A stretch of 35,060 nucleotides of DNA from Candidatus Hebobacterum abditum (GTDB taxonomy: Bacteria; Armatimonadota; Hebobacteria; Hebobacterales; Hebobacteraceae): assembly GCA_029821875.1 (NCBI GenBank), contig JALGXW010000038.1:1-35060 (forward strand). The letters are read 5' to 3'. The notes under the pieces are model-generated. The model ran no database searches, was not told the DNA's origin, and saw nothing but the letters and a program-made list of their open reading frames with translations. Position 1 is the first letter of the stretch, and every line of letters begins with the position of its first letter. Positions 5,656 through 25,564 of the stretch are shown here, piece by piece. Position numbers and translations under genes: made by a program.

Positions 5656-5886
5656 CGATGGACTAGATGGGAATACTACCCGCGCGGCGCCCTCAAAGGC
5701 CATCTGGCACGGCCGTTCTGGGGTCGTCGTGCTCGCGCGGGCTGGTGCCCGTGTTACCGGTTTGGCGGTCTAGACCTTGTGTCCGGAACGCAAGGGCGAT
5801 TACAATCAACAGCGTCTGGCGAACTCGCGCGGGAGTTCATCCTCGAGGGTGCTGCGCGTTCGCGGATGGACGCAGCACACCGTGAG

Positions 5887-7308
5887 ATGGTGGTGTCAGG
5901 AAACGAGGCAAAGGGGAGCTCTGCTACCAGAGCTCCCCAAGAAGCAAGCGGGCGTAAGGGAGGGCTAGTCAACCGGCTCGCCTCGGTGCACTTGTTGCTG
6001 TGGCTTGTAGCGATTCTTGCCGCCGCCATGGCCGTTGCTACAGTGGTGCCGCAGAAGGCACCCGCGGAGGTGTACAACCACGCTCTCGGACACTTGATTG
6101 GGCCGCTGGTTTACCGCTCGACCCTCCGCGATATCTATGGTGCCTGGTGGTTTATCGGCGCTTTTGGACTCGTCGCGCTGAGCTTGCTGGCTTGTAGCCT
6201 GCGACGTGCCGGGCAGCTTCTGCGAGGGCGCGGGGGCGCGACGCATGTCAGTCGGCGTGACGTTGCAGCCCGTCCCAATCGGTCTGAGTGGCGGATCGCG
6301 CTGGAGGCTGACGAGGCCGCTTCAGCGTTGACTAAGGGCCTTCAGAAGGCCGGCTACGCGGTGCAGCCCGCGAAGGCAGATCAGAAGAGATCCAGCGGTC
6401 TGACTGCGCGGCGAGGCCCTGCAATGGCGTGGGGGGTGGTCATCATGCACGTCGGCATGGCGCTTGTCCTTCTCGGGGCCGCCTACGGACGACTCCCCGC
6501 GAACTCATATAGTGCTGTCGCTGACCTCGACGCGGGGGAGTCGTATCAAGTCCAGGCCGGTGGGGACACATTCTCGGTGCGGCTCCTCGATGCCGGTCAG
6601 GAGCGAGATGAAGAGGGCCGTCCGACTCGCTTCTGGGCGGAGGCGGAGATCATCGAGGATGGAGAAGTGGTGAAGTCGGGACTGATAGAACCGAATCGGC
6701 CTCTCCGCTACCGCGGAGTCAACACTGTTCTGCAGAGCCTTTCCTCCGCCGGCTATGTTGTGGCGGTGTCCAAGGGGGAGGCCAGGAGCGCTGTGCCCGT
6801 GGTCTTCGGTCCAGATGGCAGCGTGGCCATGCTGGAGACCGTGCGCCAGCTGGAGGATCCGCCCTGGGTCGTCTTCATCCACGATTTCCGGTCCTCGGCA
6901 GGCGGGGCCGACGCGGCTCCGGCTGCACACGTCTTCGCCGATCCGACGGGGCAGTTAAGCCACAACTGGGAGAAGGTCGGTTGGGTTGGGTCAGAAGGGC
7001 TGACCTACTCGGGTGTACACTTCCGTCTCGTGCCGGGAGGACAGGCTGCGCAGCTGCTACTGGATCGTGACATAGGCGTTCCCCTCGTCTGGTTCGGTTT
7101 CTGCATCTTCGTGTTGGGCTCGGTGCCCCTAATCGGCATCCGCCGCCGGACGCTCCTCGCTGTTGTCTCGGCCAGGGGTGCCGCGTGCAGCGTCCTCTTT
7201 GGAGGCAGCGATGCTCGTGCGGAACGCGATTTCGAGCGGGCGATCAGCGATCTGGGCGTGAAGGCCACCAAGATCGGGGACGTCGTTACAGCGAGCGATC
7301 ATGAGTGA
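5887..7308 (+). CDS. resB: ResB/Ccs1-type cytochrome c maturation protein
   Basis: Membrane component of system II cytochrome c biogenesis. With CcsA it moves heme across the membrane and attaches it to CXXCH cysteines of exported apocytochromes. The conserved core opens with RLASVHLLLWLVAILA (first helix) and ends that helix at VVPQ, as in the family. Further helices follow around YGAWWFIGAFGLVALSLLAC and WGVVIMHVGMALVLLGAAYG, the latter with a conserved heme-ligand-type histidine. After a large outside domain a last helix (VWFGFCIFVLGSVPLIGI) is followed by a short cytoplasmic tail. The start is uncertain: the frame is open from a GTG at 5779, with ATGs at 5866 and 5887. The first codons use atypical codons and include a strong hairpin, so I chose 5887 (473 residues). 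The stop is nine bases before the next gene. Confidence 0.88.
   Translation: MVVSGNEAKGSSATRAPQEASGRKGGLVNRLASVHLLLWLVAILAAAMAVATVVPQKAPAEVYNHALGHLIGPLVYRSTLRDIYGAWWFIGAFGLVALSLLACSLRRAGQLLRGRGGATHVSRRDVAARPNRSEWRIALEADEAASALTKGLQKAGYAVQPAKADQKRSSGLTARRGPAMAWGVVIMHVGMALVLLGAAYGRLPANSYSAVADLDAGESYQVQAGGDTFSVRLLDAGQERDEEGRPTRFWAEAEIIEDGEVVKSGLIEPNRPLRYRGVNTVLQSLSSAGYVVAVSKGEARSAVPVVFGPDGSVAMLETVRQLEDPPWVVFIHDFRSSAGGADAAPAAHVFADPTGQLSHNWEKVGWVGSEGLTYSGVHFRLVPGGQAAQLLLDRDIGVPLVWFGFCIFVLGSVPLIGIRRRTLLAVVSARGAACSVLFGGSDARAERDFERAISDLGVKATKIGDVVTASDHE
5913..5938 (+). repeat. Perfect 11-bp inverted repeat near the resB start
   Basis: GGGGAGCTCTG, a four-base loop (CTAC), then CAGAGCTCCCC: a perfect 11-base-pair stem in the mRNA, 26 bases long. 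It lies 26 bases after the chosen resB ATG, in codons upstream of the conserved protein core. No U-run follows, so it is not a standard terminator. It could be an attenuation or mRNA-stability hairpin, or an operator palindrome. Confidence 0.8.
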
Positions 7309-7317
7309 GGGAGGACT

Positions 7318-8292
7318 ATGAGGGAGAGAATGGGCTTGTGGGTCGCGGCCGTGGCGTTGCTGCTGGCAGTAGCGGCTCGGACCCCCTCGGCACTGTCGCC
7401 GACCGCGTACGGCGCCGAAGATGCGAAGTACATGGGTCCGAAGCTGTGCGTAGCCTGCCATCGGGGCACACACGCCGACGTGATCGAGGCCGTCAGCGCG
7501 AGCACCCATGAAAGCGCGATGTGGAAGGTCGAGGACGAAGACGAGGATCATCCTCTTGTCGGCGACTTCGGGAGCGCCCCGCCCTTCCCAAAGGAGAAGA
7601 TCGCCTATGTGCTGGGAGTTGGCCGCAAGTACCAGGCCTACCTCGACGCCGATCTGCAGGTCCTGCCAGCGGAATGGTTCGTCAAGGACGGTGCGTGGCG
7701 CCCGCGCGAAGCTGTAGACGCCACGCGTGAATGCCTCGGCTGTCACACCACCGGCTTCGACCCCGAGACGAAGAAGTGGGCGGCCCTTGGGGTGACGTGC
7801 GAGATGTGCCACGGTCCAGGATCAGTCCATGCTGCGTCGGCTGATAAGAATGAAACCATCGTCAGGCCGCAGGGCCTCGATCCCGCTCGGCGTGTGATGA
7901 TATGTGGGCAGTGTCATTCACAGGGGAAGAGCAAGGACGGCGCGCACGCGTTCCCGGTGGGCTACCATCCAGGGGACGACCTCGGCCAGTACTTCGTGCT
8001 CGACGCGGAGGTGGACTCGGACGCGGTCAACACTCAGTACAACGAGCTAGTGCAAGGCGCCAAGCATCTCGCGGGCGGCACGGTCTGCTCTACCTGTCAT
8101 GAGGCACATGGTCCCTTGGAGGGCCTGCCGAGCCAATTGAGGGCAGCGACGAATGACCTATGCTTGAACACCGACTGCCACGGCGGCAAGCTCTCCGGCG
8201 CGCAGCACGAGCCGGCGGCGCTGCAAGCCGTGACGTGCACCATCTGTCACATGCCGAAAGGAAAGCACTCCTTTGCCGCTCCCGGCGATTAA
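7318..8292 (+). CDS. Periplasmic heptaheme cytochrome c (cytochrome c554-like)
   Basis: Exported electron-transfer cytochrome of 324 residues. A signal peptide spans about residues 1-33 (hydrophobic VAAVALLLAVAA, then an AYGA-type cleavage site). Six CXXCH sites begin at Cys44, 139, 161, 196, 257 and 307, and one site has the wider CX4CH spacing (CLNTDCH, 282-288), giving seven predicted covalent hemes. The opening KYMGPKLCVACH followed by a histidine-bearing helix resembles cytochrome c554-type domains. There is no membrane anchor after the signal, so the protein should be soluble in the periplasm or outside. It sits between resB and ccsA, the machinery that would mature it. The ATG has GAGGGAGG upstream. 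Its redox partner is not evident. Confidence 0.85.
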   Translation: MRERMGLWVAAVALLLAVAARTPSALSPTAYGAEDAKYMGPKLCVACHRGTHADVIEAVSASTHESAMWKVEDEDEDHPLVGDFGSAPPFPKEKIAYVLGVGRKYQAYLDADLQVLPAEWFVKDGAWRPREAVDATRECLGCHTTGFDPETKKWAALGVTCEMCHGPGSVHAASADKNETIVRPQGLDPARRVMICGQCHSQGKSKDGAHAFPVGYHPGDDLGQYFVLDAEVDSDAVNTQYNELVQGAKHLAGGTVCSTCHEAHGPLEGLPSQLRAATNDLCLNTDCHGGKLSGAQHEPAALQAVTCTICHMPKGKHSFAAPGD

Positions 8293-8338: not shown

Positions 8339-9196
8339 ATGAACATTGAGCACACGTTAATCCAGGCCGCGCTTGGCCTCTACGTGGCGGCGCTCGTGCT
8401 GTACGTCGCCGGCTTTGCCTTCGGCTCAGATGGCCCGAAGAAGCTGGCGAGCGCGGCCGCGTGGGGTGGCCTTGCCGCGCAGGCGGGGATGCTCGGCATT
8501 CGATGGAGCCATGCCGGCCGCGTGCCGCTTGTCAGCATGTACGAGTACCTGAACGCATTCGCCGCGATGGTCGTCCTCTGCTATCTCGTCTTCGCGCGGA
8601 GACAGAAGGGCTGGGGACAGGGAGCGCAGGCCCTGGGCGCCATCGCGCTTCTGATCGCGCTATGCCTGCTCGGCTATGGTGTCCGACTGCCGGCGACGAT
8701 GAAGCAAGCCGAGCCCCTCATGCCGGTGCTGAGGAGCTATTGGTTAGTCATTCACGTGTCCATGGCGGTGATCGGCTACGGCGCAGCCGCCCTGGCGAGC
8801 GCACTCGCTTGCCTCTTCTTCGTCAGGACGAAATGGGGCGCTGAGAGCGAGTGGCTGCGCAGTCGGCTTCCCACGGCCTCGACCATCGACCAAGGAGTGT
8901 ATAGATCGGTCCGCTTCGCATTTCCCTTCCTCGCGCTCCTCAACATCACTGGCGCCGTGTGGGCATACTACGCCTGGGGGCGCTACTGGGGTTGGGATCC
9001 CAAGGAAACCTGGTCGCTGATCACCTGGTTGGTCTATGTCTTCTACTTCCACGCGCGTCTGCGTGCGAATTGGCGACCTCCGAAGCTGAATGCCGTTGTG
9101 TTGATTGGACTGGCCACGATCCTGTTCACTTTCCTGGGTGTCAATCAGCTTGCAGCCTTCTCCGAGAGCCTTCACTCCTATGCATCCGGTGGATAG
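8339..9196 (+). CDS. ccsA: CcsA-type cytochrome c heme lyase/exporter subunit
   Basis: Partner of ResB in system II cytochrome c maturation; it handles heme at the outer membrane face. The 285-residue protein is almost entirely hydrophobic, with about eight predicted helices. It has the diagnostic tryptophan-rich WWD domain WGRYWGWDPKETWSLITW (residues 213-230). Candidate heme-ligand histidines lie at 139 (before a helix) and 279 (after the last helix), on either side of the WWD loop as in the family. The ATG at 8339 follows a 46-base gap after the heptaheme gene. The ribosome binding site is weak. Length matches ResC/CcsA. Confidence 0.93.
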   Translation: MNIEHTLIQAALGLYVAALVLYVAGFAFGSDGPKKLASAAAWGGLAAQAGMLGIRWSHAGRVPLVSMYEYLNAFAAMVVLCYLVFARRQKGWGQGAQALGAIALLIALCLLGYGVRLPATMKQAEPLMPVLRSYWLVIHVSMAVIGYGAAALASALACLFFVRTKWGAESEWLRSRLPTASTIDQGVYRSVRFAFPFLALLNITGAVWAYYAWGRYWGWDPKETWSLITWLVYVFYFHARLRANWRPPKLNAVVLIGLATILFTFLGVNQLAAFSESLHSYASGG

Positions 9197-9239
9197 TACT
9201 TTGACGACGCGGTCGCATTGGATTGGCCCGCTCCGGGCA

Positions 9240-10295
9240 ATGAGCAGCCGATCGATCCATCGACTGACTCTCGCCGCGCGGCTGGTGACGATGGTCCTCG
9301 TCTCGGTTGCCGCGACGGAGCAGGTGTCGGGCGCAGTGCGGGGGCCCTCCCGGATGCTGCTCCGAGATGACACGATCTGTCTGGGCTGCCACGAGGAGTC
9401 CGCGCGTGAGAAGGCGGCCCCCGCCGTCGCGGCGGATGAGCTTCGCAGGTCCGCGCACCGCACACTCGTCTGTGTTGACTGCCATAGGGACCTGGACCGG
9501 GTGCCGCACCCGCGCGGGCTAGCGCCGGTTGACTGCGGCGACTGCCATGAGCCTTCGCCGCCGGGGAGCATCGAGGACTCGTATATGAGCCGGCACAGAC
9601 GGGAGCAGGGACAGCCAGACGCGGGGATGCCTGCCTGCATCGACTGCCATGGCGGGCACGACACCTTCCCTGTGCTTGACGCGGGGCCGACGGAGGCCGC
9701 TCGCCTGGTGGATCGGTGCGCGGCCTGCCACCGCGACGTGTGGTCGGCCTACATGAATAGCGTGCACGGGAAGGGGCTCTTGGCCGGTGGCCGTCACGTC
9801 CCTACCTGTGCATCCTGCCATCCCGAACACCTCCAGCAGGGGGCCCAGGAGCGCGCGGGAGTTATCGAGGCAGGGTCCGTCGCGACCTGCATTCCCTGCC
9901 ACGACGACCCTGGACTGCAAGAGCAGTACGCGCTTCCGGGAAACCGCATGTCATCATACCTGGGAAGCTATCACGGGACGGCCAGATACCTTGGAGATAC
10001 GCGAACCGCCGACTGTGTGAGCTGTCACGGCTACCATGACATTCTGCCGTCGAGCGACCCGAACTCGTCCATCCATGTAGACAATCTCGGGGAGACATGT
10101 GGGGGGTGTCACCCGGGGGTGACTGAGAACGTGGCGAAGGGCCGGGTTCACGTTATGGCGACGAAAGAGAGCGGTTCGCTTCTCTACTACATCAACTTCG
10201 GCTTCCGCTGGTTCACATTTGCGGTGATCGGTGGGCTGGTGGGGCACATCGGACTTGAGCTCTTTGGGCGGCTGCGAAGACGAAACGGAGATTGA
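9240..10295 (+). CDS. Membrane-anchored nonaheme cytochrome c
   Basis: A 351-residue exported cytochrome with nine CXXCH motifs starting at Cys47, 78, 99, 133, 160, 190, 217, 259 and 287, so nine predicted c-type hemes. It begins with a basic, then hydrophobic, signal region (about 1-32). It ends with a membrane helix (about 324-343) followed by a short positive tail, so the heme domain should face the periplasm with the C-terminus anchored. The cytochrome b gene starts three bases downstream, which argues that the two form a complex. The frame is open further upstream, but the ATG at 9240 gives a proper signal sequence. No catalytic site for a known reductase was recognised, so a role as quinol-linked electron carrier is inferred. 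Confidence 0.85.
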   Translation: MSSRSIHRLTLAARLVTMVLVSVAATEQVSGAVRGPSRMLLRDDTICLGCHEESAREKAAPAVAADELRRSAHRTLVCVDCHRDLDRVPHPRGLAPVDCGDCHEPSPPGSIEDSYMSRHRREQGQPDAGMPACIDCHGGHDTFPVLDAGPTEAARLVDRCAACHRDVWSAYMNSVHGKGLLAGGRHVPTCASCHPEHLQQGAQERAGVIEAGSVATCIPCHDDPGLQEQYALPGNRMSSYLGSYHGTARYLGDTRTADCVSCHGYHDILPSSDPNSSIHVDNLGETCGGCHPGVTENVAKGRVHVMATKESGSLLYYINFGFRWFTFAVIGGLVGHIGLELFGRLRRRNGD

Positions 10296-10298
10296 CGA

Positions 10299-11252
10299 AT
10301 GCGGGCCGAGCGTCACAGCGGCGTAGAACCGACCGAAGATGGCCCGCCCCAGGGGCTGGGGCGGTCAGCCCTGCTCAGGGAGGTGGCCGAACAGCTCCGG
10401 GATGAGCGCAAACGGCTCGAACGCCAGTCCGACTGGCGCGTAATCGCAAGCGCCGAGCAGGACATCGCTGCCGACATTGCGGCTGAAGCCAGGCGTCGGC
10501 TGCAGGAGGCCGTAGCGCGCCGGGCACAGGAGGCCCGCGCGCCAGCGGCCGAGGGTGAACACCAGCGATTCAGCGTGCTCTTTCGCGTCCAGCACTTCGG
10601 ACTCCTCGTGAGCACGCTCGCCCTGATCATAACCGGTCTGCCGCTGCGCTACGCAGAAACGGAGTGGGCTCACGCTTTCTTCCGGTGGATCGGGGGAGTT
10701 CCGGTCCAGGCCGCCACCCATCGCGCGGGTGCCGGTCTGTTGATTGCGGTGGGTGCATTCCACATGTGTTACATAGTCTTCTCCCGCGAGGGGCGACGGG
10801 AGCTGATGGCACTGATCCCGCGGCCGAAAGATGTGCTGGATCTGTTCCGCAACCTCGCCTACTTCGTCGGGCTGGCGCGTGAGCGGCCGAAGTTCGACCG
10901 CTTCAGCTACGTGGAGAAGTTCGACTACTGGGCCGTGTACTGGGGCATCGTCATCATGGTCGGCTCGGGGCTTCTCCTCTGGTCCCCGGAGCTAGCCATG
11001 AGGCACCTGCCGAAGTACATTCTCGATATCTCTCAGGTCGTTCACAGCGACGAGGCGCTGCTGGCCGCGACCGCCATCATAGTGTGGCACTTCTATAACA
11101 CTCACCTCAACCCCGACTCCTTCCCCATGAACTGGGCCTGGCTGACTGGACGCATTTCGAAGGAAGACCTGCGTGAGCACCATCCGCTCGAGTATGACAG
11201 ATACTACGGCAGCGCAGAGGGACATCAGTCCACTGGGGAGTCCCCCGAGTGA
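10299..11252 (+). CDS. Membrane cytochrome b (b561 / formate dehydrogenase gamma-like)
   Basis: Probable diheme b-type membrane subunit exchanging electrons between the quinone pool and the neighbouring c-type cytochromes. The 317-residue protein has four predicted helices (about 98-116, 143-161, 211-229 and 252-268). Histidines placed to bind heme are His99, His155, His249 and His264/His269, in stretches such as VQHFGLL, FHMCYIV and IVWHFYNTH. Residues 1-90 form an unusual, highly charged N-terminal extension, probably helical or coiled-coil and cytoplasmic. GGAG lies eight bases before the ATG. It is flanked by the nonaheme and 28-heme genes, and its stop overlaps the next start (GTGA). The heme count and the direction of electron flow are inferred. 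Confidence 0.85.
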   Translation: MRAERHSGVEPTEDGPPQGLGRSALLREVAEQLRDERKRLERQSDWRVIASAEQDIAADIAAEARRRLQEAVARRAQEARAPAAEGEHQRFSVLFRVQHFGLLVSTLALIITGLPLRYAETEWAHAFFRWIGGVPVQAATHRAGAGLLIAVGAFHMCYIVFSREGRRELMALIPRPKDVLDLFRNLAYFVGLARERPKFDRFSYVEKFDYWAVYWGIVIMVGSGLLLWSPELAMRHLPKYILDISQVVHSDEALLAATAIIVWHFYNTHLNPDSFPMNWAWLTGRISKEDLREHHPLEYDRYYGSAEGHQSTGESPE

Positions 11253-13264
11253 GGCGGCTGTGGTCCAACGTAGGCAGACTCCTAACCAGACGCGTCAAGG
11301 TTCCGCTCGTGCCTCTGCGAGTGCCGCTCGTCGTTCTGCTCCTGCTCGGCGGGGTCGTCGTGGGGGTGCCGACGGGCGCCGCGGTAATCGTGGCGACTAA
11401 CCAACCGATGTTCTGTAACTCCTGCCACGAGATGAGCCTGCACTACGCTACCTGGAGGCAGTCCTCGCACAGCGAGGTAACCTGCGAAGAGTGCCACCTG
11501 ATGCCCGGGACGATGAACATGTTGAAGGGGAAGATCGCCGCCTTCCGCCAGGTGCGGCTCCACGTCGAGAAGGACGTCAAACCGTCCATAATCCAGGGGC
11601 ACGTGCCCGATGAGAACTGCAAGCATTGCCACCCCACGACGCGGAAGCTCGTGGCCTACCACGGACTCAAAATCACGCACAGAGATCACTGGAACATGGG
11701 GGTATCCTGTACCTTCTGCCATGACCGTGTTGCACACGGGCCTCGCTGGCAGTTCGAAGGCGTCTCCACGGAGGAGCAGCTAACGCAGGCCACCACTCCG
11801 TCCAAGTATGCGCCAAGCATGGAGGACAAGTGCTTCACGTGCCATGACGGAGAGAAGGCCTCGAACAAGTGCTCCACCTGCCACGTGACGCTCGGCGAGC
11901 GACGTCCGAGGGCCTTCGACCCAGAGTGGGTGGCCGCGCACCGTGAAGAGGTGCAACATGCCGGATTGCGGGACTGCCGTCGATGCCATCAGGAGACCTT
12001 CTGTGACAGGTGTCATCGTGAGGCAAACCCACACACAGCCGATTGGGTGCCGACCCACCCCGAGGAAGCGAGAGACAATCCCCAGCGGTGTTTCACGTGC
12101 CATGTTGCCCCCGGCGAAGCCCAGACGACGAACGCGATGGACCTCGCCTTCTGTCGCGCGTGTCACTCGCTTCGTCGGGAGCACTCCGGGACAGACTGGA
12201 CCCAGCGCCATGGGCAGGAGGCACTCACCGACCCGACCTCGTGCATTCAGTGCCACGAGCAGAGCTGGTGTTCGGACTGCCATTCGCTGATCCGCCCTCA
12301 CCCGGCGGAGTGGCGGATTCGCCACGTGGCAGATGCCAGCCGCGATCGGTCGGGCTGCGGCGTTTGCCACACGGCGGACTTCTGCGACGCCTGCCACCGC
12401 GGCAAGAAGGGCACTCCAGGCTCCCACGACGCCGATTGGCTGCGCCAACACAAATACGACGCAGGCCGCGGAGAGGAGTCATGCCAGGTCTGCCACGAAT
12501 CCGACTTCTGCCGTGCCTGTCACGTCGAGCGCGCTCCCATGGATCACGATATTCGCTGGCTGGCCAAGCACGGAGGGGAGAGCACGGAAGAGCAGTCCGC
12601 TTGTCTGCTCTGTCACGAGGACGAAGACTGCAGTCAATGCCACGGTATGACGATGCCACATCCGAAGCTGTGGCTGGCCTCACACCACAAAGCGGCGGCC
12701 GAGAACAGGGAGCAGTGTGAACGCTGCCATCGCAGGGATGCATGCGACGTCTGCCACCGCGGCGCCTTCCCCGATTCGCATCTGCCCTCGGACTGGGCGG
12801 ACGGCCATGGTGCGGCTGCACAACAGGAGGGCGCCGAGTGCTACCTCTGCCACCGGGAGGCGCTGTGTGACTCCTGCCACGGCTTGACGATGCCACACCC
12901 GGCGGCATGGGAGGCCACTTCCCACGGTGATGCAGTGCAACGGGACAAGGCTACATGCTGGCGGTGTCATACTGAGGAAGAGTGCCAGGCATGCCACGGC
13001 CTCGCCATGCCCCATCCCGGCGACTGGGTGGCCGAGCACAGCGCCGAGGCGAACGCGGCACCGGGGACTTGCCTGAGCTGTCATGCCGCAGACTCTGACG
13101 ACTGCACCGTGTGTCACAAAGCTCTCACCCCAAGTGACCACCGCGAAGCGCAGTGGGGGCAGGAGCACGGCGTGGCGGGCGCCTCGAAGATGGAGCTCTG
13201 CGCTCTTTGCCACGGTAAGAGCGCGTGTGTCGAGTGTCACGAAGCAAGCGCCGGGGCAGCATAG
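11249..13264 (+). CDS. 28-heme cytochrome c with NapC/NirT-type membrane anchor
   Basis: A 671-residue protein with 28 CXXCH motifs, about one heme per 24 residues. Residues 1-48 contain a single membrane helix (VPLVVLLLLGGVVVGV region) followed directly by NQPMFCNSCHEM, the opening of NapC/NirT/NrfH quinol dehydrogenases. Motif cysteines start at 56, 79, 124, 154, 195, 208, 243, 252, 281, 302, 332, 341, 370, 379, 412, 421, 452, 461, 490, 499, 531, 540, 570, 579, 608, 619, 651 and 660. The first six form the NapC-like head; from 243 on they come in pairs. Start is GTG with GGGGAG upstream, overlapping the cytochrome b stop. The hemes should face outside the cytoplasmic membrane. The likely role is to carry electrons from quinol or cytochrome b across the envelope; no enzyme active site was recognised. 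Confidence 0.93.
   Translation: MRRLWSNVGRLLTRRVKVPLVPLRVPLVVLLLLGGVVVGVPTGAAVIVATNQPMFCNSCHEMSLHYATWRQSSHSEVTCEECHLMPGTMNMLKGKIAAFRQVRLHVEKDVKPSIIQGHVPDENCKHCHPTTRKLVAYHGLKITHRDHWNMGVSCTFCHDRVAHGPRWQFEGVSTEEQLTQATTPSKYAPSMEDKCFTCHDGEKASNKCSTCHVTLGERRPRAFDPEWVAAHREEVQHAGLRDCRRCHQETFCDRCHREANPHTADWVPTHPEEARDNPQRCFTCHVAPGEAQTTNAMDLAFCRACHSLRREHSGTDWTQRHGQEALTDPTSCIQCHEQSWCSDCHSLIRPHPAEWRIRHVADASRDRSGCGVCHTADFCDACHRGKKGTPGSHDADWLRQHKYDAGRGEESCQVCHESDFCRACHVERAPMDHDIRWLAKHGGESTEEQSACLLCHEDEDCSQCHGMTMPHPKLWLASHHKAAAENREQCERCHRRDACDVCHRGAFPDSHLPSDWADGHGAAAQQEGAECYLCHREALCDSCHGLTMPHPAAWEATSHGDAVQRDKATCWRCHTEEECQACHGLAMPHPGDWVAEHSAEANAAPGTCLSCHAADSDDCTVCHKALTPSDHREAQWGQEHGVAGASKMELCALCHGKSACVECHEASAGAA
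11975..13240 (+). repeat. Eleven tandem two-heme protein repeats
   Basis: Within the 28-heme gene, residues 243-664 are eleven units of about 38-51 residues starting at Cys243, 281, 332, 370, 412, 452, 490, 531, 570, 608 and 651 (the last one truncated). Most units have the pattern CX2CHX4CX2CH, so the two hemes are nine residues apart. The exceptions are units 2 (21 apart) and 10 (11 apart). Each pair is followed by a histidine/proline and tryptophan segment such as MPHPxxW and then another histidine before the next unit. Units starting at 452, 531 and 570 are the most alike (GMTMPHP, GLTMPHP, GLAMPHP), suggesting the latest duplications. Confidence 0.9.
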
Positions 13265-13325
13265 GTGCGCCCGGCGTGGGAATGGAGCAGAAGCGAGGAG
13301 CCAGCCACCATTCCGGAGCAGCGGC

Positions 13326-14462
13326 ATGACGGCGCAACCCGAGCAAACTAGGGAGAAGATGCACTCACACGAAGCACAACACGATGTATCGGGACAGAAC
13401 GCTGCCGAGAGGCAAAGGGAGGACGACTGGCGACGGCCCTCGCTTGTGTCTTGGAATATCACGCGCCAATGCAACCTGACGTGCGCTCACTGCTATCGCG
13501 ATGCGACGGAGGAGGCAGACCCAGAGGAGCTGAGCACCGAAGAGGGCCTGCGCCTCATCGAGGAGATCGCCGGGGTCGCCTTCCGGGTCCTTATCCTGTC
13601 GGGCGGGGAACCACTGATGCGAGCGGATCTGTACACGCTCGTGGAGAAGGCGCGCGCCGTCGGGCTCAGACCGGTGCTGGGGACAAACGGGATACTCATC
13701 ACCCCCCAGGTGGCCCGGCGCCTACGCGAGACAGGGCTGGCCCGGGCGGGCATCTCCTTGGATGCCGCGGACCCGGACTACCACAATGAGCTGCGGGGTT
13801 CGCCCACCGCCTGGCAGGATGCGGTGGCCGGGATGAAAGCCTGCGTCGATGCAGGTCTCCCCTTCCAGATCAACACGACAGTCACTCGCCAGAATCAAGA
13901 CCAGCTCCTGCAGATAACCGACCTCGCCCGTGACCTCGGAGCTGTTGGGCACCACGTCTTCTTCCTCGTGCCTACCGGCCGTGGTCGCGACATCGCCGAC
14001 GACATGGTCGAGGCCTCCCGCTGCGAGCAGCTTCTCGCCGCATTGCTCAGTCGGCAGGACGAAGTTGGCATCGAGATAAAGCCGACGTGCGCGCCACAAT
14101 TCGTCCGCATCGCCGACCGCCTGGGCATATCCACGCGGTTCCACGCTGGGTGCCTGGCCGGCCGAACCTACTGCGTGGTCATCCCGAACGGCGACGTCCA
14201 CCCCTGCCCGTACCTGCCGCTGGCCGTGGGCAACGTTCGAAAGACCCCCTTCTCCGAGCTCTGGCGATCGGCGGAGGTGCTGCGCCGTCTTCGCGAGGAC
14301 CCTCTCGAGGGAACCTGCGGGCGCTGCCACTGGGGCAAGAGGTGCTTCGGGTGTCGGGCGCGCGCCTACTACGCAACGGACGGCAACTACTTGGCAGAGG
14401 ATCCGTGGTGCACGCTTCGGTCCCCACGCCAACTCAGCGGCGAGAGCTGCGCTCGGCCGTGA
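13326..14462 (+). CDS. ahbD: Radical SAM heme synthase AhbD (NirJ2-like)
   Basis: Probable last enzyme of the siroheme-dependent heme pathway, converting Fe-coproporphyrin III to heme b by oxidative decarboxylation of two propionates. The 378-residue protein has the radical SAM cluster motif CNLTCAHC (Cys49, 53, 56), the SAM-binding GGEP (about 93-96), and a cysteine-rich C-terminal region (Cys255, 276, 283, 294, 331, 334, 340, 343, 362) for auxiliary cluster(s). The SWNITRQCNLTCAHCYRDA opening resembles NirJ2/AhbD rather than AhbC. The other Ahb enzymes lie downstream, which supports the call. The ATG has GGAG seven bases upstream; a second ATG at 13359 is possible. It follows the 28-heme gene by 61 bases. 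A radical SAM enzyme for another tetrapyrrole or peptide cannot be fully excluded. Confidence 0.8.
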   Translation: MTAQPEQTREKMHSHEAQHDVSGQNAAERQREDDWRRPSLVSWNITRQCNLTCAHCYRDATEEADPEELSTEEGLRLIEEIAGVAFRVLILSGGEPLMRADLYTLVEKARAVGLRPVLGTNGILITPQVARRLRETGLARAGISLDAADPDYHNELRGSPTAWQDAVAGMKACVDAGLPFQINTTVTRQNQDQLLQITDLARDLGAVGHHVFFLVPTGRGRDIADDMVEASRCEQLLAALLSRQDEVGIEIKPTCAPQFVRIADRLGISTRFHAGCLAGRTYCVVIPNGDVHPCPYLPLAVGNVRKTPFSELWRSAEVLRRLREDPLEGTCGRCHWGKRCFGCRARAYYATDGNYLAEDPWCTLRSPRQLSGESCARP

Positions 14463-14481: not shown

Positions 14482-17187
14482 GTGGCCAGCTCCGGCGAGA
14501 TGGCAGGCCGAGAGGCCCCTGTGCTGACCAGCCTGGCGACGACGACTTCGGCCCGCAAGGTTGCGAAGGAACGCCGCGTTGCCGTTCTCGGCGGCGGGCC
14601 GGCGGGGGCCTTCTGTGCGCTCTGGTTGTGCCGTCTCAGGGCCCAGGCGGGCGCGAAGATGGAGATCGTCGTCTTCGACCACAAGAGCTTCGACAAGCTC
14701 GGGCCGGCCGGCTGCAACATGTGTGCGGGGGTAATACCGGACTCGCTCGTCCGGAACATGCGTATGCTCGGCATGGAGCTGCCCGAGCGGGTCATCCAGC
14801 GGCGCATCGGTGGGTGCTACCTGGAGACCAAGGGGGGCTCGGTCGACCTCCCTGTGCCCGACCATACCTGCCTCTACGCAACGTTCCGAGGCCCCGGCCC
14901 GCTCGGGGTCTACCCAGATGCTCACGAGGGTTTCGACTGGTACCTTCTGGAGGAAGCTCGGAAAGGTGGGGCCGCTCACGAGAGCAGACTGGTCACGGAT
15001 GTCCGCATGCCGTCCGAGGCAGAAGAGCCGTTCGAGATAGTGTGCAACGATGGTTTCAGAACGGAGGTGGACATCGTCGTTGGCGCCTTCGGGGTCAACA
15101 GCAACCTGGGTACCGTCTTCGAGCGACTCGCCTTTGGCTATCGCTCGCCGAAGACACTCCGTGCCCGCCAGGCGGAGATGCCTGTCGACCCGGAGTCCAT
15201 GCGCCATCCGATGCGCGATCGGATGATGATATTCGCCACGGGACAGCCATCCATCAGATATGCTGCGATCACGCCCAAGCGGCGTCACGTCACAGTCACC
15301 TTGATCGGCGAGAATCCTAGTCGCGGTGATATGGAGGCGTTCCTCCACTCCGACATGGCCGCGAAGCACTTCCCGCCAGGATGGTCCCCGCCCAGCCGCT
15401 ACTGCTCCTGCGCTCCGCGCCTTCCTGTGACGGCTGCCCGCAACCCTATCCATGACCGCCTCGTGGTCATCGGTGACGCCCACGCCTCGCGTTATCTGAA
15501 GAACGGAATCGAGTCCAGCTTCTATACAGCGATGTGGGCGGCCAACGCGATCGCGAGGAGCCAAACCTCCGAGCGAGAGCTGCGGGAGCACTACCTGAGC
15601 ATCTGCCGCCGGACGTATGTGCGAGACAACGTGTTCGGTCGAGTGCTGCTGAGAGCGCACGATCTCATATCTCGCTCCGCAATCATCGCGCAAGCACACA
15701 TCGAGGTGGCGCGCGCGGAGCAAGCGACGCCGGGTAGACGGAGGCTTCTGACGGACGTCTTGTGGGGCACGTTCACCGGAAACATGCCCTACCGAGCGCT
15801 CATGCGGAGGGCCGTGGATCCCCGTCTCCAGCTGCGGCTCGCGCAAGCTCTACTGTCCGCTCTGCGCACTCGCATCAGCTCTCCCCGTCCCGGGCGGCCG
15901 GCTGAGACATCTCCGGCCCGCAGCCGGCCGGGCACGCGACGCAGGGTAATCGTCATCGGCGGCGGCCCCGCCGGCACCGCCTGCGCGATAGCACTGGCGC
16001 GCGGGGCCCAGGGGTCCGAGCCTGCGCCTGAAGTCACTCTGGTTGAATCAAAGCAGTTTGGCGAGCGACAGAACCAGTGCGCAGGGGTTGTCTCACCTCC
16101 AGGGCCCGCCATGATCTCCCGGACGCTGGGTACGCCCGTGCCCCAAGCGCTGTTCCAGCGGCGCATCAGTGGCTACGTCCTCCATGGAGCAGCCTGTTCG
16201 ATCTACCTCAGCGGCGAGGAATTCGGTGAGTCATCTTACGTCCTGCGACGCGTTGAGCTCGACCGCTTGCTCCTCCAGCGGGCAGAGGCGTGCGGCGTGA
16301 AGATCACTCACGCCCGTGCAACAGATGTCGAGTTCGCCTCTCGCGGCGCTGTGGTCTACACGGAAGGTGGCAGCCTGGAAGGGGACGGAGTAGTCGGCGC
16401 CTTTGCCCTCGACGAGACCATGGCCCGGGCCTTCTCTCGCCGCACGGGCTACCGGCCGCCGGCCTCGCTTGAGACTCTTGCCTGCAAGATACATCCGAAA
16501 GGACTGGACTTCATCCCAGGGCTGCTGGAAGACAGCATTCACGTCTACCTTCCGAGGGCAGCTCGCGTGGACTTCGGCGCACTCATTCCCAAGGGTAATC
16601 ATATAGTTGTGATCATCGCCGGCGCGGGCATTGGTGCCGGAGATATGGCGGAGTTCATGGCGTCACCTGACGTGGCCAGGCTCCTCCCCGAAGACGGCCG
16701 GACGGAGGGACTATACAAGGGCGCCTTCCCCCTCGGGCCGGCAAGGGGTCTCTACGGCAACTCCTACGTTGTCATCGGGGATGCGGCAGGCATGGTCCGG
16801 CCCTTCAAGGGAAAGGGCATCAACTCCGCCATAGACGGCGGACACAGATGTGCCGAGTCCATTCTCACCAATGGCTTCTCGGGGGAGGCCTTCGCCGTGT
16901 TCGCCCGGAGCCAGCAACACCTGACCGGAGACGTTTGGTACGGCCGGCTCGTGCGTCGACTTGTCATGCTGACCTCGAAGCATGGCCTGCTCGACCCGAT
17001 AATCCAGCATGCCAAGACGAGCGCCCCCCTTTCCCAGGCGTTGTTCGATTGCATCTCGGGACGAACAACGTACCGCGACGTCGTGTTGCGAGGAGAGAAC
17101 CTCAATTGGCTTCCAGCCGCAGTGTGGCGGTGTGCCGCGTGGAAGGGGGGCACACGTCTGGCAGGCAGCAGAGGAGAGCGGAAATGA
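14482..17187 (+). CDS. Fused double FAD-dependent oxidoreductase (geranylgeranyl reductase family)
   Basis: A 901-residue protein made of two homologous flavoprotein halves. Half 1 has the FAD-binding VAVLGGGPAG near residues 33-42; half 2 has VIVIGGGPAG near 489-498. Both share a CAGV motif (CNMCAGVIPDS; NQCAGVVSP) followed by a matching QRRI.G segment. The second FAD motif is canonical in half 2 (VVIGDAAGMVRPFKGKGI) but altered in half 1 (VVIGDAHASRYLKNGI). This family (COG0644) reduces isoprenoid double bonds or acts as electron-transfer flavoprotein dehydrogenase. The substrate here is unknown. Neighbours suggest quinone or isoprenoid metabolism (a prenyl-synthase-like gene ends the run) or tetrapyrrole metabolism. 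The start may be GTG 14482 (used), ATG 14500 or GTG 14521. The stop overlaps the next start. Confidence 0.82.
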   Translation: MASSGEMAGREAPVLTSLATTTSARKVAKERRVAVLGGGPAGAFCALWLCRLRAQAGAKMEIVVFDHKSFDKLGPAGCNMCAGVIPDSLVRNMRMLGMELPERVIQRRIGGCYLETKGGSVDLPVPDHTCLYATFRGPGPLGVYPDAHEGFDWYLLEEARKGGAAHESRLVTDVRMPSEAEEPFEIVCNDGFRTEVDIVVGAFGVNSNLGTVFERLAFGYRSPKTLRARQAEMPVDPESMRHPMRDRMMIFATGQPSIRYAAITPKRRHVTVTLIGENPSRGDMEAFLHSDMAAKHFPPGWSPPSRYCSCAPRLPVTAARNPIHDRLVVIGDAHASRYLKNGIESSFYTAMWAANAIARSQTSERELREHYLSICRRTYVRDNVFGRVLLRAHDLISRSAIIAQAHIEVARAEQATPGRRRLLTDVLWGTFTGNMPYRALMRRAVDPRLQLRLAQALLSALRTRISSPRPGRPAETSPARSRPGTRRRVIVIGGGPAGTACAIALARGAQGSEPAPEVTLVESKQFGERQNQCAGVVSPPGPAMISRTLGTPVPQALFQRRISGYVLHGAACSIYLSGEEFGESSYVLRRVELDRLLLQRAEACGVKITHARATDVEFASRGAVVYTEGGSLEGDGVVGAFALDETMARAFSRRTGYRPPASLETLACKIHPKGLDFIPGLLEDSIHVYLPRAARVDFGALIPKGNHIVVIIAGAGIGAGDMAEFMASPDVARLLPEDGRTEGLYKGAFPLGPARGLYGNSYVVIGDAAGMVRPFKGKGINSAIDGGHRCAESILTNGFSGEAFAVFARSQQHLTGDVWYGRLVRRLVMLTSKHGLLDPIIQHAKTSAPLSQALFDCISGRTTYRDVVLRGENLNWLPAAVWRCAAWKGGTRLAGSRGERK

Positions 17188-20694: not shown

Positions 20695-22223
20695 TGCAAG
20701 CAGGCACAGTCTATCTAGTCGGCGCGGGACCCGGAGACCCGGGGCTCATGACTCTGCGTGGCCTTGAGATTCTGAGGATGGCCGATGTCATAGTGTGCGA
20801 TCGGCTGGCGAGCGACTCACTTCTGACTGAGGCGAGGAGCGACGCGCGCCTGATCTACGTGGGCAAGGAGGCCGGGAAGCACGCGCTCAGCCAGGACCAG
20901 ACGAATCAGCTGCTGGCGGACGAGGCGTCTGCCGGGCGGTCGGTTTGCCGTCTCAAGGGTGGAGACCCCTACCTGTTTGGCAGGGGCGGCGAAGAGGCCG
21001 CGTACCTGGCGGAGCGAGATATCCCGTTCGTCGTCGTCCCTGGCATTAGCTCGGCGGTGGCGGTCCCGGCCTACGCTGGGATTCCGGTTACCGACCGCCG
21101 CTTCGGGTCAAGTGTGGCGATCGTCACCGGCCATAGGGCCGCGGGCAAGGATCATGACCCGGTTCGATGGGAGTTGCTTGCGAAGGCTGCCGACACGGTG
21201 GTCGTCCTCATGGGAATGGCGAACTTGGACGCCATCAGGAGGGAGTTCCTCCGCGGCGGCCGAGAGGGCGCGACTCCCGTCGCCGTGATTCGCTGGGGGA
21301 CGACGGGCCTGCAGCAAACTGTGGTCTCCGATCTCGCGAACATCGCTGCTGAGGTCGAGCGCGCCGGGCTGAAACCTCCCGCGATCCTCGTCGTCGGCGA
21401 GGTGGTCAAGCTCCGAGAGCAGTTGTCATGGTTCGAGCGCCGACCTCTGCTCGGCCTCCGGGTCCTCGTGACTCGACCGCGCCACCAGGCAAGCAAGCTA
21501 GCTGAACTGCTGCGGGATGAAGGCGCACAGCCGGTCGTGTGCTCTCTCATCCGGATCGAACCGGTCGAAGCCGATGTCGACCGGCTGAACGGCCTCTTCG
21601 AGCAGCGCTGGGACTGGGTTCTGTTCACGTCGGCCAATGCCATCCCTTGCTTCGGCGAACAGCTGCGCGGGGCAGGGCTCGACTGGCGCGCGCTGGCAGG
21701 CGCTCGCCTGGGAGCGATCGGGCCCGGCACGAGTGCTTCGCTTGAGGCCCTGGGCTTGCGCGTCGATTTCGTGCCGAGCCGGGCGGTAGCCGAATCGCTG
21801 GCAGAGGAGCTTCCGGGGGTCTCGCCCACAACGCGAGTGCTGATCCCTCGCGCCGCGGAGGCTAGGGAAGCAATAGTGGAAATGCTGCGCGCCAGGGGTA
21901 CGCTAGTGGAGGAGATCCCGGTTTACCGGACCGTTCCCGACGAACGCAGTTCGTCACATGTGGCTGAACTGCTGCGCGACGCTGAGATTGATGTCGTGAC
22001 CTTCACGAGCTCATCGGCCGTGCGAGCCATGGTCGATGCGATTGGATCTGAAGCGCTCAAGAACGTGTCCGTCGCGTGTATCGGGCCGATAACAGCAGAG
22101 ACCGCGCGCGAGCACGGGATGGCAGTTCACGTTGAGGCCGAAGAACACACGATTCCCGGGCTGGTCGCGGCGTTGAAGGTCTATGTAGCGTCTCGCTCAC
22201 AGAAACAAGGAGCAGTACCTTGA
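20691..22223 (+). CDS. cobA-hemD: CobA-HemD fusion (uroporphyrinogen III methyltransferase/synthase)
   Basis: A 510-residue bifunctional enzyme. Residues 1 to about 245 are the SAM-dependent uroporphyrinogen III C-methyltransferase, with VYLVGAGPGDPGLMTLRG at the N-terminus, CRLKGGDPYLFGRGGEEA (about 85-102), and VVPGISSAVAVPAYAGIPVT. It makes precorrin-2. Residues about 255-505 are uroporphyrinogen III synthase (LRVLVTRPRHQASKLAELL opening; VLFTSANAI; VVTFTSSSAV), which cyclises hydroxymethylbilane. This fusion is common in bacteria using the siroheme route. With the upstream fusion, two polypeptides cover four steps from porphobilinogen to siroheme. ATGA overlap upstream and TTGA overlap downstream suggest translational coupling. 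Confidence 0.95.
   Translation: MMQAGTVYLVGAGPGDPGLMTLRGLEILRMADVIVCDRLASDSLLTEARSDARLIYVGKEAGKHALSQDQTNQLLADEASAGRSVCRLKGGDPYLFGRGGEEAAYLAERDIPFVVVPGISSAVAVPAYAGIPVTDRRFGSSVAIVTGHRAAGKDHDPVRWELLAKAADTVVVLMGMANLDAIRREFLRGGREGATPVAVIRWGTTGLQQTVVSDLANIAAEVERAGLKPPAILVVGEVVKLREQLSWFERRPLLGLRVLVTRPRHQASKLAELLRDEGAQPVVCSLIRIEPVEADVDRLNGLFEQRWDWVLFTSANAIPCFGEQLRGAGLDWRALAGARLGAIGPGTSASLEALGLRVDFVPSRAVAESLAEELPGVSPTTRVLIPRAAEAREAIVEMLRARGTLVEEIPVYRTVPDERSSSHVAELLRDAEIDVVTFTSSSAVRAMVDAIGSEALKNVSVACIGPITAETAREHGMAVHVEAEEHTIPGLVAALKVYVASRSQKQGAVP
22207..22222 (+). promoter_or_regulatory. Ribosome binding site fixing a TTG start for ahbC
   Basis: AAGGAG (22207-22212), a seven-base spacer, then TTG (22220-22222). 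The TTG overlaps the cobA-hemD stop as TTGA. The next in-frame starts would cut into the conserved N-terminus, so the strong Shine-Dalgarno site decides the start. Confidence 0.75.
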
Positions 22224-23404
22224 TTGGCTTCACGAAACTTCTGTGCGGCTCGGCAACTGTCTCCCGCGTGCTTCGTGAGGTCGCCGTTGGAGGCAGCAGG
22301 GCCGCCAATCTCCTGCAGTTCACGACAGCGGAGCGGCCGCTGGTGGTCTGGAACATGACGACCCGCTGCAATCTGCGGTGCGTCCACTGCTACAACCGCT
22401 CCGGGGAAGCGGACGTCGAAACCGGCCTGACCACAGAGCAGGCGGAGGCGCTCATAGACGACCTGGCGGAGATGGCGGTCCCAGTGCTCCTGTTCTCGGG
22501 CGGGGAGCCGGTTCTGCGCCCCGATCTGTTCCACCTCGGTGAGTACGCAACCGTCCGGGGCCTTCGAGCCGTCCTTTCGACAAATGGAACGCTCATCACC
22601 GAGGAGGTCGCCGCCGGTCTCGCCAAGGCGCGGTTCCAGTATGTGGGTGTCTCGATCGACGGCCTGGCTGTGGTGCACGATTCGTTTCGCGGCCGGGAGG
22701 GCGCGTTCGAGGACGCGTGGGAGGGCATACGCGCCGCCCAGGCAGCCGGCCTGCGAACCGGGGTGCGTTTCACCGTCACCCAGGACAATGCAAGTGACCT
22801 TCCGGGCGTTCTCCAGCGGGCCGTTGCTGAGGAGGTCGACCGGTTCTGCCTGTACCATCTCGTCTACGCCGGGCGCGGCAGTGGGCTCGCCGAGAAGGAC
22901 CTGTCGGCGGAGCAGCGCCGGGAGATGATCGAGTGGCTGATGGACGAGACGGAGGAGCTGCACCGCCAGGAGAAGAGCATCGAGATCCTGACGACGGACA
23001 ACCACGCCGACGGCGTCCTCCTGCACCGCAGAATAGAGAGCCGAGATCCGGCGCGAGCATCGGAGGTGCTGGAGCTGCTGAGCATGCACGGTGGGTGCTC
23101 GGCCGGCAAGAAGTTTGCGAACGTGGATGCGTTCGGCGACGTTCACGCGTGCCAGTTCTGGGGGCACGAGTCTCTCGGGAACGTGCGTGAACGGCCCTTC
23201 TCCGAGATCTGGGCCGATCTGGATTCCCCGCTGCTAGCCAACCTGCGGCGATCGCAGGAGCTGCTGACAGGGCGGTGCGGATCCTGTCGGTACAGGGCCT
23301 ACTGCGGCGGGTGCCGCATCCGCGCCGAGGCGGTGCACGGGGATCGCTGGGCGCCCGATCCTGCCTGCTATCTGACGGATGAGGAGGTTCTGAACGGTGA
23401 CTGA
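22220..23404 (+). CDS. ahbC: Radical SAM 12,18-didecarboxysiroheme deacetylase AhbC (NirJ1-like)
   Basis: Probable third Ahb enzyme, removing two acetate side chains from 12,18-didecarboxysiroheme to give Fe-coproporphyrin III. The 394-residue protein has the radical SAM motif CNLRCVHC (Cys50, 54, 57), SGGEP (93-97), and a C-terminal cysteine set (293, 311, 353, 356, 362, 365, 383) for an auxiliary cluster. The opening [10 protein letters not shown] and [20 protein letters not shown] closely follow AhbC/NirJ1 proteins and separate it from the AhbD-like gene at 13326. It lies between cobA-hemD and hemB. Start is TTG with a strong ribosome binding site. The stop overlaps hemB by eight bases. 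Confidence 0.87.
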
Positions 23405-24458
23405 CACGCGTCAAGAGCTAGCTCCTTCGGCCCCCGAAGCCGGCCCCTTCGAGTCGCGGACGGGGCGAGCAGCAGAGGGCCCTCCGGCGCTTCGCCGTCG
23501 CCCGCGACGTCTTCGGCGGACGGGCGCGATCCGGGACATGGTGAGGGAGACCCGGTTGCGGCCACAGCAGTTCATCTACCCTCTCTTCGCGACTTCGGGC
23601 ACCAGCACGCAGGAGGAGATCGACGCTCTCCCCGGCCAGTACCGCCTCTCGCCGGATCGGCTTGTCGAGCAGGCGAAGCGGGCATGGGACCTCGGCATCC
23701 CGGCGGTGCTGCTTTTCGGACACGCGGAGCACAAGGATGAGATGGGAAGCGAGGCCGCGGACCCCCGCGGGATCACCCAGCAGGCGGCGCGAGCGCTCAA
23801 GAGCAACTTGCCCGACCTGGTCGTGATGACGGATGTATGTCTGTGTGCCTACACCACACACGGTCACTGCGGGCTGGTGGATGAGAAGGGACAGATCCTG
23901 AACGACCCCACGCTGGAGGTCCTGGCCAAGGTATCCCTGTCCCACGCGGAAGCCGGGGCCGACATGGTGGCTCCGTCGGACATGATGGACGGGCGCGTCG
24001 GCGCCATCCGTCAGGCCCTCGACGCGGCCGGCCGGGAGGACATCGGCATCATGGCCTACGCGGCAAAATACGCGTCCGCCTTCTACGGGCCGTTTCGGGA
24101 AGCTGTCGACTCCGCGCCGCAGTTCGGCGACCGGCGCGGCTACCAGATGGATCCGGCCAACTGCAGAGAGGCGCTGCGCGAGGCGAAGCTCGACGTCGAA
24201 GAGGGCGCGGATATCGTCATGGTGAAGCCGGCCCTGGCTTATCTGGATGTCATCGCCGCGGTGCGACCCGCGGTCGACGTGCCGGTGGCGGCCTACAATG
24301 TCAGCGGGGAGTATGCGATGGTGGCGGCGGCGGCGGAGCGGGGCTGGGTCGAGCCGCGAGCTCTTACCCTCGAGGTGCTAACGAGCATAGCGCGTGCGGG
24401 CGCAGACATGATCATCACCTATCACGCGCTGGAGGCGGCCGCATGGCTCAAGGCGTAA
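23397..24458 (+). CDS. hemB: Porphobilinogen synthase (delta-aminolevulinate dehydratase)
   Basis: Condenses two 5-aminolevulinates to porphobilinogen. The 353-residue protein has the zinc-type metal site [14 protein letters not shown] (Cys148, 150, 158), pointing to a zinc-dependent enzyme, and the two Schiff-base lysines Lys224 (MAYAAKYAS) and Lys277 (VMVKPAL). The N-terminal 40 residues are arginine- and proline-rich and variable; the conserved part starts at [20 protein letters not shown] later start cannot be ruled out, but the GTG at 23397 fits the overlapping layout of the operon. The stop overlaps the next gene by 16 bases. Confidence 0.96.
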
Positions 24459-25564
24459 GTGGGCCTGCAGAGCTGTCGGCCCAGGACCGATCGATCATCA
24501 CCCTGATTCAGGCGTCGTTCCCTTTGGTGCGGCGCCCATTCGAGGTGATCGCTGGCGGGTTGGGGACCAGCGAGGAGGCCGTGCTGGGCCGGCTGGCCCG
24601 CCTAAAGGAGGCGGGGCTTGTCCGCAAGATCGGTCCGGTCCTCGAACCTGCCAGGTTCGGCATCTCCAGCGAACTGATCGCGGTGCAGGTCTCGCCCGAG
24701 GAATTGGAGAGAGTCGGCGAAGCGGTCTCGCTCTGGCGTCCCGTCACTCACTGCTACGCCCGCTCCCATCCCGTCAACCTTTGGCTGGCTGCGCTGTCCG
24801 CCGAAGAGCAGTGGTTCGAGGAGGCACGGGAGCGAATCCTGGCGAGGCCGGGAGTGCTGGGCGTCTGGCGGCTCCCTGCGGTCCGGCGGTTCAAGGTTGC
24901 GGTCAGGTTCGACCTCACGGGCCAAACGGGGCCTGATGTCGAAAGCCCCGCGGCGGCAGCCAACGAAATGGACGAGGCCTCGCCGGCGCCACCTTCGAGC
25001 AGCGCGCAGGAGGAGCTTGACCTGCATGTGCTCGCGGCCTTGGAAGCGGATCTGCCCCTACATCCAGAGCCATTCTCTGCACTGGCTCTGACCCATGGTC
25101 TGGACGAGGCACAAATCATCTCCACGCTGCAGCAATGGAGGGCCAACGGCCGGATCCGGCGGTACGGCGCCCTGGTCAGCCATCTGCGCCTCGGCTTTGT
25201 GGCAAACGCGATGACAGTGTGGCAGGTGTCCGCTGAGCGAGTGGAAGAGGTCGGGACCGCGCTCGCCTCCTCCTCGCACGTTTCTCATTGCTATGAGCGA
25301 CCGGCCTTCCCGGAGTTTCCGTTCAACCTCTACGCCATGGTCCATGAGAGGTCCCGAGAGCGATGCACGGCCGTAGTTGAGGAGCTCTCCGGTCGTTGTC
25401 GTGACAGTCCGCGGGCGGTGCTGTTCTCGACGAGCGAGTTCAAGAAGTCCTCGCCCAGGTACGCTGAACTGCTTGCCGAGCGCGTGAGTCCGCCCGAGGG
25501 CGCTTCGCTCCGGACGGGCACTAGCGGGACATGTGCAAAGCAGAGCACGGATGGAAAACGGTGA
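24443..25564 (+). CDS. ahbAB: Siroheme decarboxylase, AhbA-AhbB fusion
   Basis: Removes two acetate carboxyls from siroheme to give 12,18-didecarboxysiroheme. AhbA and AhbB are normally two small homologous proteins with an Lrp/AsnC-like fold that form a heterodimer; here they are one 373-residue chain. Half 1 (about 10-160) has the helix-turn-helix-like start and [16 protein letters not shown] (101-116). Half 2 (about 188-345) has [10 protein letters not shown] and FNLYAMVH. The VTH/VSH-Y-R and NLW/NLY pattern is typical of the decarboxylase family. A proline/serine/alanine-rich linker joins them (about 165-190). The last 25 residues look unstructured. The ATG has GGAGG seven bases upstream. 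It should not be read as a transcription factor despite the fold. Confidence 0.88.

Follow-up and report, generated by a model that had tools for sequence, protein, structure and literature searches.

The gene at positions 11249 to 13264 of the window, the 35,060-nucleotide stretch of Candidatus Hebobacterum abditum DNA that we analyzed (contig JALGXW010000038.1), encodes a protein with 28 CXXCH motifs, which we call the wire. We give a probability of roughly 0.6 to the following reading: it is an inner-membrane cytochrome of the NapC/NrfH type in which tandem duplication of a diheme unit extended the periplasmic part, giving a single-polypeptide heme wire that leads to an outer-membrane conduit. 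From the sequence, this function is plausible.

A NapC/NrfH-like head in front of a heme array

The earlier note on this DNA had placed a heme wire at 11975-13240. The 11 CXXCH pairs that it described are present there, but this interval is only the C-terminal two thirds of the gene, which begins at 11249 and adds a membrane anchor and six hemes. We assigned the following parts.

11249..13264, + strand: whole wire gene, 671 amino acids, GTG start, 28 CXXCH motifs, NapC/NrfH-like head and heme-repeat array
11327..11401, + strand: probable membrane anchor helix, residues 27-51 (helix in a weak structure model)
11402..11740, + strand: NapC/NrfH-like domain with hemes 1-4 at residues 56, 79, 124, and 154 (PF03264; NrfH, 2j7a)
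11831..11974, + strand: c7-like heme pair 195/208 at an offset of 13, plus linker (motif spacing and profile match)
11975..12088, + strand: unit 1 (residues 243-280)
12089..12241, + strand: unit 2 (281-331), with an insertion between its two motifs, offset 21
12242..12355, + strand: unit 3 (332-369)
12356..12481, + strand: unit 4 (370-411), type A
12482..12601, + strand: unit 5 (412-451), type A
12602..12715, + strand: unit 6 (452-489), type B
12716..12838, + strand: unit 7 (490-530), type A
12839..12955, + strand: unit 8 (531-569), type B
12956..13069, + strand: unit 9 (570-607), type B
13070..13198, + strand: unit 10 (608-650), type A, offset 11
13199..13261, + strand: terminal half-unit 11 (651-671), a heme pair without distal His

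Every cysteine of the wire sits in one of the 28 CXXCH motifs and none lies elsewhere, whereas shuffled versions of the protein held 0.43 such motifs on average and 3 at most (2000 shuffles). The protein family has one hydrophobic segment. The head matched PF03264 at 44.5 bits (cut-off, 24.1), PF03264 was matched in 11 of 14 orthologs, and the NrfH structure 2j7a aligned with the family profile at an E value of 2.7e-13. The NrfH equivalog model TIGR03153 scored 54.2 bits, below its cut-off of 134.2. The predicted anchor and four-heme domain place the wire in the NapC/NirT/NrfH family, and it falls outside the NrfH equivalog.

Between the head and the array is the c7-like pair, whose Cys, His, and Gly201 are invariant in 14 orthologs. 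The whole protein matched Cytochrome_C7 (PF14522) best at 142-212, and the array matched the same profile in four stretches at 52.5 bits (cut-off, 24.8); such matches in heme-rich chains probably rest largely on CXXCH. The array also scored above the cut-off for MtrC/MtrF-domain profiles. Paired_CXXCH_1 (PF09699) did not match the array even at an E value of 10 and was found somewhere in 2 of the 14 orthologs.

The array consists of diheme units that carry their own distal histidines

From residue 243, the array runs through ten full diheme units to the terminal half-unit. The unit consensus is CxxCH-x4-CxxCH-(P)H-x3-W-x3-H. Unit lengths of 38-51 residues, as first described, hold for the ten full units but not for the last one, which has 21. 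The nine-residue offset between paired hemes, described as fixed, occurs in 9 of the 11 pairs; motifs 281/302 are 21 apart and motifs 608/619 are 11 apart. An offset of exactly 9 accounts for 9 of the 21 gaps in the array, a number reached by none of 5000 random placements. The HPxxW that was said to follow the motifs is literal in only 4 of 11 cases (351, 471, 550, and 589). What the ten full units do have is a His-aromatic-His pattern, and it is absent from the last pair.

We then asked how well the distal histidines are kept. With a permissive pattern, both were found in all 177 full units of the 18 long and 20-heme proteins, compared with a chance rate of 1101 in 8850 shuffled tails. Among the 117 units of 39 aligned triplets, neither the two distal His residues nor any Cys or His of the two motifs varied. 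These triplets were non-overlapping and stayed in register; overlapping five-unit windows aligned by their true overlap and hence were not used. Two CXXCH motifs and two distal His are what two bis-His hemes require. We infer from the sequence that the array hemes are bis-His ligated. No His follows the last heme pair in 17 of the 18 proteins. Because this pair does not supply a distal His, its ligands would either come from upstream or be missing, which hints at ligand sharing between adjoining units. Thus, some hemes may be ligated by a His of the neighboring unit.

Unit number differs among relatives behind one conserved junction

Scanning genome contigs with the single protein gave no relatives, while an alignment-based scan found them. 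Matches at an E value of 1e-60 were present in 15 of 291 Armatimonadota genomes, in one case (G001) only through a contig-edge fragment. We counted 15 complete long wires, including one at locus L060. There are 11 units (28 hemes) in 11 of these, 12 in G253, and 13 in G014, G250, and G275. Three 20-heme relatives have 7-8 units. Short relatives with 0-3 units are mostly from Actinomycetota; proteins of this phylum have the same N-terminal spacing (23, 45, 31, 24, 13) followed by 3 units, and others have 2 or 1. One protein, at L155, has the six-heme head and zero diheme units; here the head lies inside a 683-amino-acid protein with a late hydrophobic segment (L155:1732-3783). The same junction is therefore followed by anything from 0 to 13 units (0-3, 7-8, 11, 12, and 13 being found). 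Thus, the count is not identical throughout but differs among relatives, as the earlier note's duplication proposal called for.

For the tree, we used the N-terminal part only, in 69 rows: the 15 long wires, the three 20-heme proteins, and 51 short relatives. The short rows (L068 and up) were closed ORFs in which the fifth spacing was 12-17 and the offset of the first unit did not exceed 12. Loci L057-L059 and L061-L065 apparently duplicate other loci and were counted once. The 15 long wires grouped in a single clade (98/86), within which unit number changed at least four times; L060, labelled Bacillota, falls within this clade. G014 and G041 are sisters (100/99), with 13 and 11 units, respectively. 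The two extra units of G014 are best placed at U10-U11, and other placements in the tail score slightly less. Unit number therefore changes, in steps of one or two, and rarely at these distances. Of the 51 short relatives, 12 have an odd heme count (9, 11, or 13), so that the even-number rule applies only to the long wires and the proteins with 20 hemes.

Two further phyla were sampled. In that of G294 (Actinomycetota), 4 of 396 sampled genomes matched at an E value of 1e-30, and the flanking stretches held 6-12-heme proteins and no long wire; in that of G292, none of 395 sampled genomes matched in a search run without a positive control. Several loci were unusual in their own right. At L046:15157-16509 (- strand), a second, 20-heme wire paralog with its own b561-like neighbor lies a few kilobases from a 32-heme one. 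At L158:3374-11783 (G294), successive genes each encode a protein of 10-12 hemes with 2-4 diheme units, as if the wire were made of several proteins. Distant heme-rich ORFs without offset-9 pairs were also seen, with 43 motifs in 1092 amino acids at L124:7641-10919 and with 21 and 24 motifs in neighboring ORFs at L135:7410-10888.

We found no support for the suggestion that repeat number varies between strains. A search of the unit DNA for a tandem array detected none, the unit copies share 60-73% of their DNA in ungapped blocks, and 11 of the 15 long wires keep 11 units. Unit DNA this diverged is too different for slippage, and strain-to-strain variation is therefore unsupported. The only copy from the same genus (G001) is a 147-residue fragment at a contig edge that is 90% identical.

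The steadiness of the unit number also bears on whether the protein is a periplasmic charge store, in which the hemes hold electrons while an acceptor is absent, as proposed for the heme nanowires of Geobacter, and length sets capacity. The protein is dense enough in hemes, with 28 in 671 residues, and storage is among the roles named for such monomeric cytochromes in PMC10138318. However, storage needs no fixed unit number, and a membrane head, an ordered array, and a unit number that rarely changes suit a path better. Storage as the explanation for the array is thus unlikely, although both roles may be true.

The units probably arose in part by duplication of a four-heme block

The earlier note had proposed that the array grew by repeat duplication. 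If so, the units should be alike beyond their CXXCH motifs, and we found that they are. In the 45 pairs of full units of the wire, identity outside the motif letters was 28%, and this likeness exceeded that of shuffles with a mean z of 3.44 (38 of the 45 pairs above 2). When the distal H, W, and H were fixed as well, the mean z dropped to 1.79, with 19 of 45 pairs above 2. Thus, much of the likeness, though not all of it, comes from the ligand pattern. Units 6, 8, and 9 (starting at 452, 531, and 570), which had been singled out as similar, were indeed among the most alike (z of 8.4 for 6/8, 6.3 for 8/9, and 6.1 for 6/9).

From U5 onward, units two apart are more alike than adjacent ones (mean score, 85.6 versus 70.2), a difference that none of 2000 shuffles of the unit order reached. 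Units of type B have PH and those of type A have PxxH. Many tails show the two types in alternation, one example being G014 with AABABABAB; the wire of the window ends in ABABBA. This likeness at a lag of two suggests that the tail grew by multiplication of a four-heme block made of two units. We conclude from the sequences that the tail was probably built from a four-heme super-repeat.

We also compared units across the 11 proteins with 11 units. Identity was 33% at the same unit position versus 26% at other positions, and a unit found its best match at its own position in 413 of 1100 comparisons, where about 1 in 10 would be expected. Orthology by position is thus partial and is clearer for U1-U5 than for U7-U10. 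The units of 23 twelve-heme relatives match scattered positions of the long wires and so point to no one unit as the ancestor that was multiplied.

The scattered matches fit no single long-wire position and could also mean that the units are not duplicates of one another, their likeness being forced by heme ligation and the pairs having been added from different sources. That 26 of the 45 pairs are not above a z of 2 once H and W are fixed (mean z, 1.79) points the same way. Against this stand the lag-2 periodicity that no shuffle reproduced, the 0-13 units behind one junction, and the difference of two units between the sisters G014 and G041, and we consider independent origins quite improbable. 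Growth by duplication is supported by the non-motif likeness, by homologs of 2-3 units with the N-terminal spacing of the wire, and by long wires of 11, 12, and 13; against it, much of the likeness reflects the ligand pattern.

Genes near the wire and possible partners elsewhere in the genome

Upstream of the wire in the window are genes for cytochromes and cytochrome maturation.

5779..7308, + strand: ResB-like cytochrome c maturation gene (PF05140, 148 bits)
7318..8292, + strand: six-heme c554-like cytochrome (motif count and profile match)
8339..9196, + strand: CcsB-like cytochrome c maturation gene (TIGR03144, 210.8 bits; cut-off, 187.6)
9105..10295, + strand: nine-heme cytochrome, ORF start uncertain
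10299..11252, + strand: cytochrome b561-like gene, formate dehydrogenase gamma-like (PF01292, 36.2 bits); its stop overlaps the wire start codon

In 12 of the 15 loci, no more than 190 bp separate the end of the b561-like match from the wire downstream of it, and the nine-heme cytochrome and b561 form one ORF in 4 of 15 (L041, L042, L048, and L050). L049 has neither match, and L051 has both on the opposite side of the wire. Two other features near the cytochromes deserve mention. Genes of the alternative (siroheme-dependent) heme pathway, AhbD/NirJ2-like, AhbC-like, and a fused AhbA-AhbB siroheme decarboxylase, are at 13083-14462, 22220-23404, and 24443-25564 of the window. A 901-amino-acid ORF at 14482-17187, made of two geranylgeranyl-reductase-like FAD halves head to tail, is conserved near the wire in L040-L042. 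PHROG and plasmid leads gave nothing useful.

Near the wire in L040-L042 is a protein of 975-1032 amino acids in which a decaheme cytochrome resembling MtrA, DmsE, and GSU2203 is joined to a GSU2204-like part (this match was checked in L040). The GSU2204/MtrB-like C-terminal part reads like an outer-membrane barrel, which would make the protein a one-piece porin-cytochrome conduit. G008, G010, and G012 carry such fusions at the wire locus, the copy in G010 giving a weak MtrB_PioB match, and the genome of the window (G000) has one on another contig, C85, at 43% identity. A different arrangement was found in L040, where a Rieske protein accompanies an ExtP-like cytochrome b that has one heme and six diheme pairs at its C terminus (13 hemes).

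L040:15853-18777 (- strand): decaheme-barrel fusion
L041:792-3887: decaheme-barrel fusion
L042:2323-5328: decaheme-barrel fusion
G000, contig C85:11402-14269: decaheme-barrel fusion
L040:5863-7986 (- strand): cytochrome b with diheme array
L053:1013-3112: cytochrome b with diheme array
L056:320-2422: cytochrome b with diheme array
G000, contig C81:20592-22424: cytochrome b with diheme array

Since both the wire head and the cytochrome b carry a diheme array, the array sits behind two different quinol-side heads.

The gene content also speaks to whether the protein works like NrfH, donating electrons to NrfA or another periplasmic reductase, with the array only enlarging the docking surface. 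The head does resemble NapC/NrfH. However, only 2 of the 15 wire genomes (G014 and G023) gave a convincing NrfA match, in both of them on a contig that also has a separate, short NapC-like match, and the NrfH score lies well under the equivalog cut-off. We regard this role as very unlikely. Finally, many hemes in a linear chain could suggest a subunit of an OmcS-like extracellular filament rather than a periplasmic wire, and so could the fact that some relatives adjoin cytochromes of the outer-surface type, among them a lipoprotein-like protein with nine hemes at L043. With a membrane head at the N terminus and with OmcS, OmcE, and OmcZ absent from the PDB sequence matches (3 at an E value of 0.001; 20 at an E value of 1), we consider this highly improbable.

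Comparison with known systems

Single-chain heme wires are already known. GSU1996 of Geobacter (12 hemes) is a crescent-shaped wire of four tandem triheme domains, each with one His-Met heme, and GSU2210 is a single-chain wire with 27 hemes, as described in PMC10138318. Compared by these descriptions, the wire shares with both many c hemes on one polypeptide, and with GSU1996 tandem heme domains; it differs from GSU1996 in having a diheme unit with two distal His and a NapC/NrfH-like head. NapC/NrfH heads are also known. The wire has the N-terminal anchor and four-heme domain of NrfH, NapC, and CymA but carries 24 further hemes, scores below the NrfH equivalog, and rarely occurs with NrfA.

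CbcL of Geobacter combines a membrane b-type domain with nine c hemes (PMC9129911) and, by that description, resembles the b561-like and nine-heme genes upstream of the wire, not the wire itself. A putative 20-heme quinol oxidase has been described from the Gram-positive iron reducer Carboxydothermus ferrireducens (Ga0395992_02_135863_137242; PMC7829351), and homologs of it are named in Coriobacteriia (PMC9686372). By description, it is, like the wire, a heme-rich protein proposed to oxidize quinol, but its anchor is of the CISM type. The 10-12-heme NapC-like cytochromes of Actinomycetota (e.g., L068:3150-4136) have the N-terminal spacing and diheme units of the wire but only 2-3 units. No family listed here describes the diheme unit of the wire, and a literature search for its motif strings found no paper.

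A proposed path from quinol to the outer membrane

In the reading that we prefer, quinol would be oxidized by the NapC-like head and/or by the adjacent b561/nine-heme (CbcL-like) module. Electrons would then hop along the 24 putative bis-His hemes that follow the head, and the free end of the protein would pass them to the outer-membrane decaheme-barrel protein, whose gene lies on another contig in this genome and close to the wire gene in relatives. The protein has 24 hemes after the head and a mass of about 92 kDa with hemes, of which the 24-heme part is 68 kDa. A published estimate puts the span of a wire with 24 hemes at 18 nm and its mass at 85-125 kDa (PMC11520253); by this estimate, the 24 hemes would extend about 18 nm. 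The 68-kDa part lies under the published mass range. Such a length would suit a periplasm of roughly 20 nm, a general width that may differ in Armatimonadota. A full-length structure model built from 13 sequences was unusable (mean pLDDT, 51). A three-unit model reached a pLDDT of 75, and a fold search with it against the PDB gave 0 matches up to an E value of 10, which has no bearing on novelty.

A bolder version is possible, but we hold it only tentatively and would not expect all of it to be right. In this version, one polypeptide would be both quinol dehydrogenase and periplasm-spanning wire, repeat number would be a ruler set by envelope width, with four-heme blocks added, and the cassette would also have been grafted onto a Rieske/cytochrome b complex, making it a plug-in module that takes the place of diffusing periplasmic cytochromes.

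Extracellular respiration has long posed the question of whether electrons cross the periplasm on shuttles or on a fixed wire. The wire points to a route of extracellular electron transfer in Armatimonadota, known here only from metagenome-assembled genomes. Its variants, which differ in length by whole units behind one conserved head, are a natural test set for how span and rate depend on heme number.
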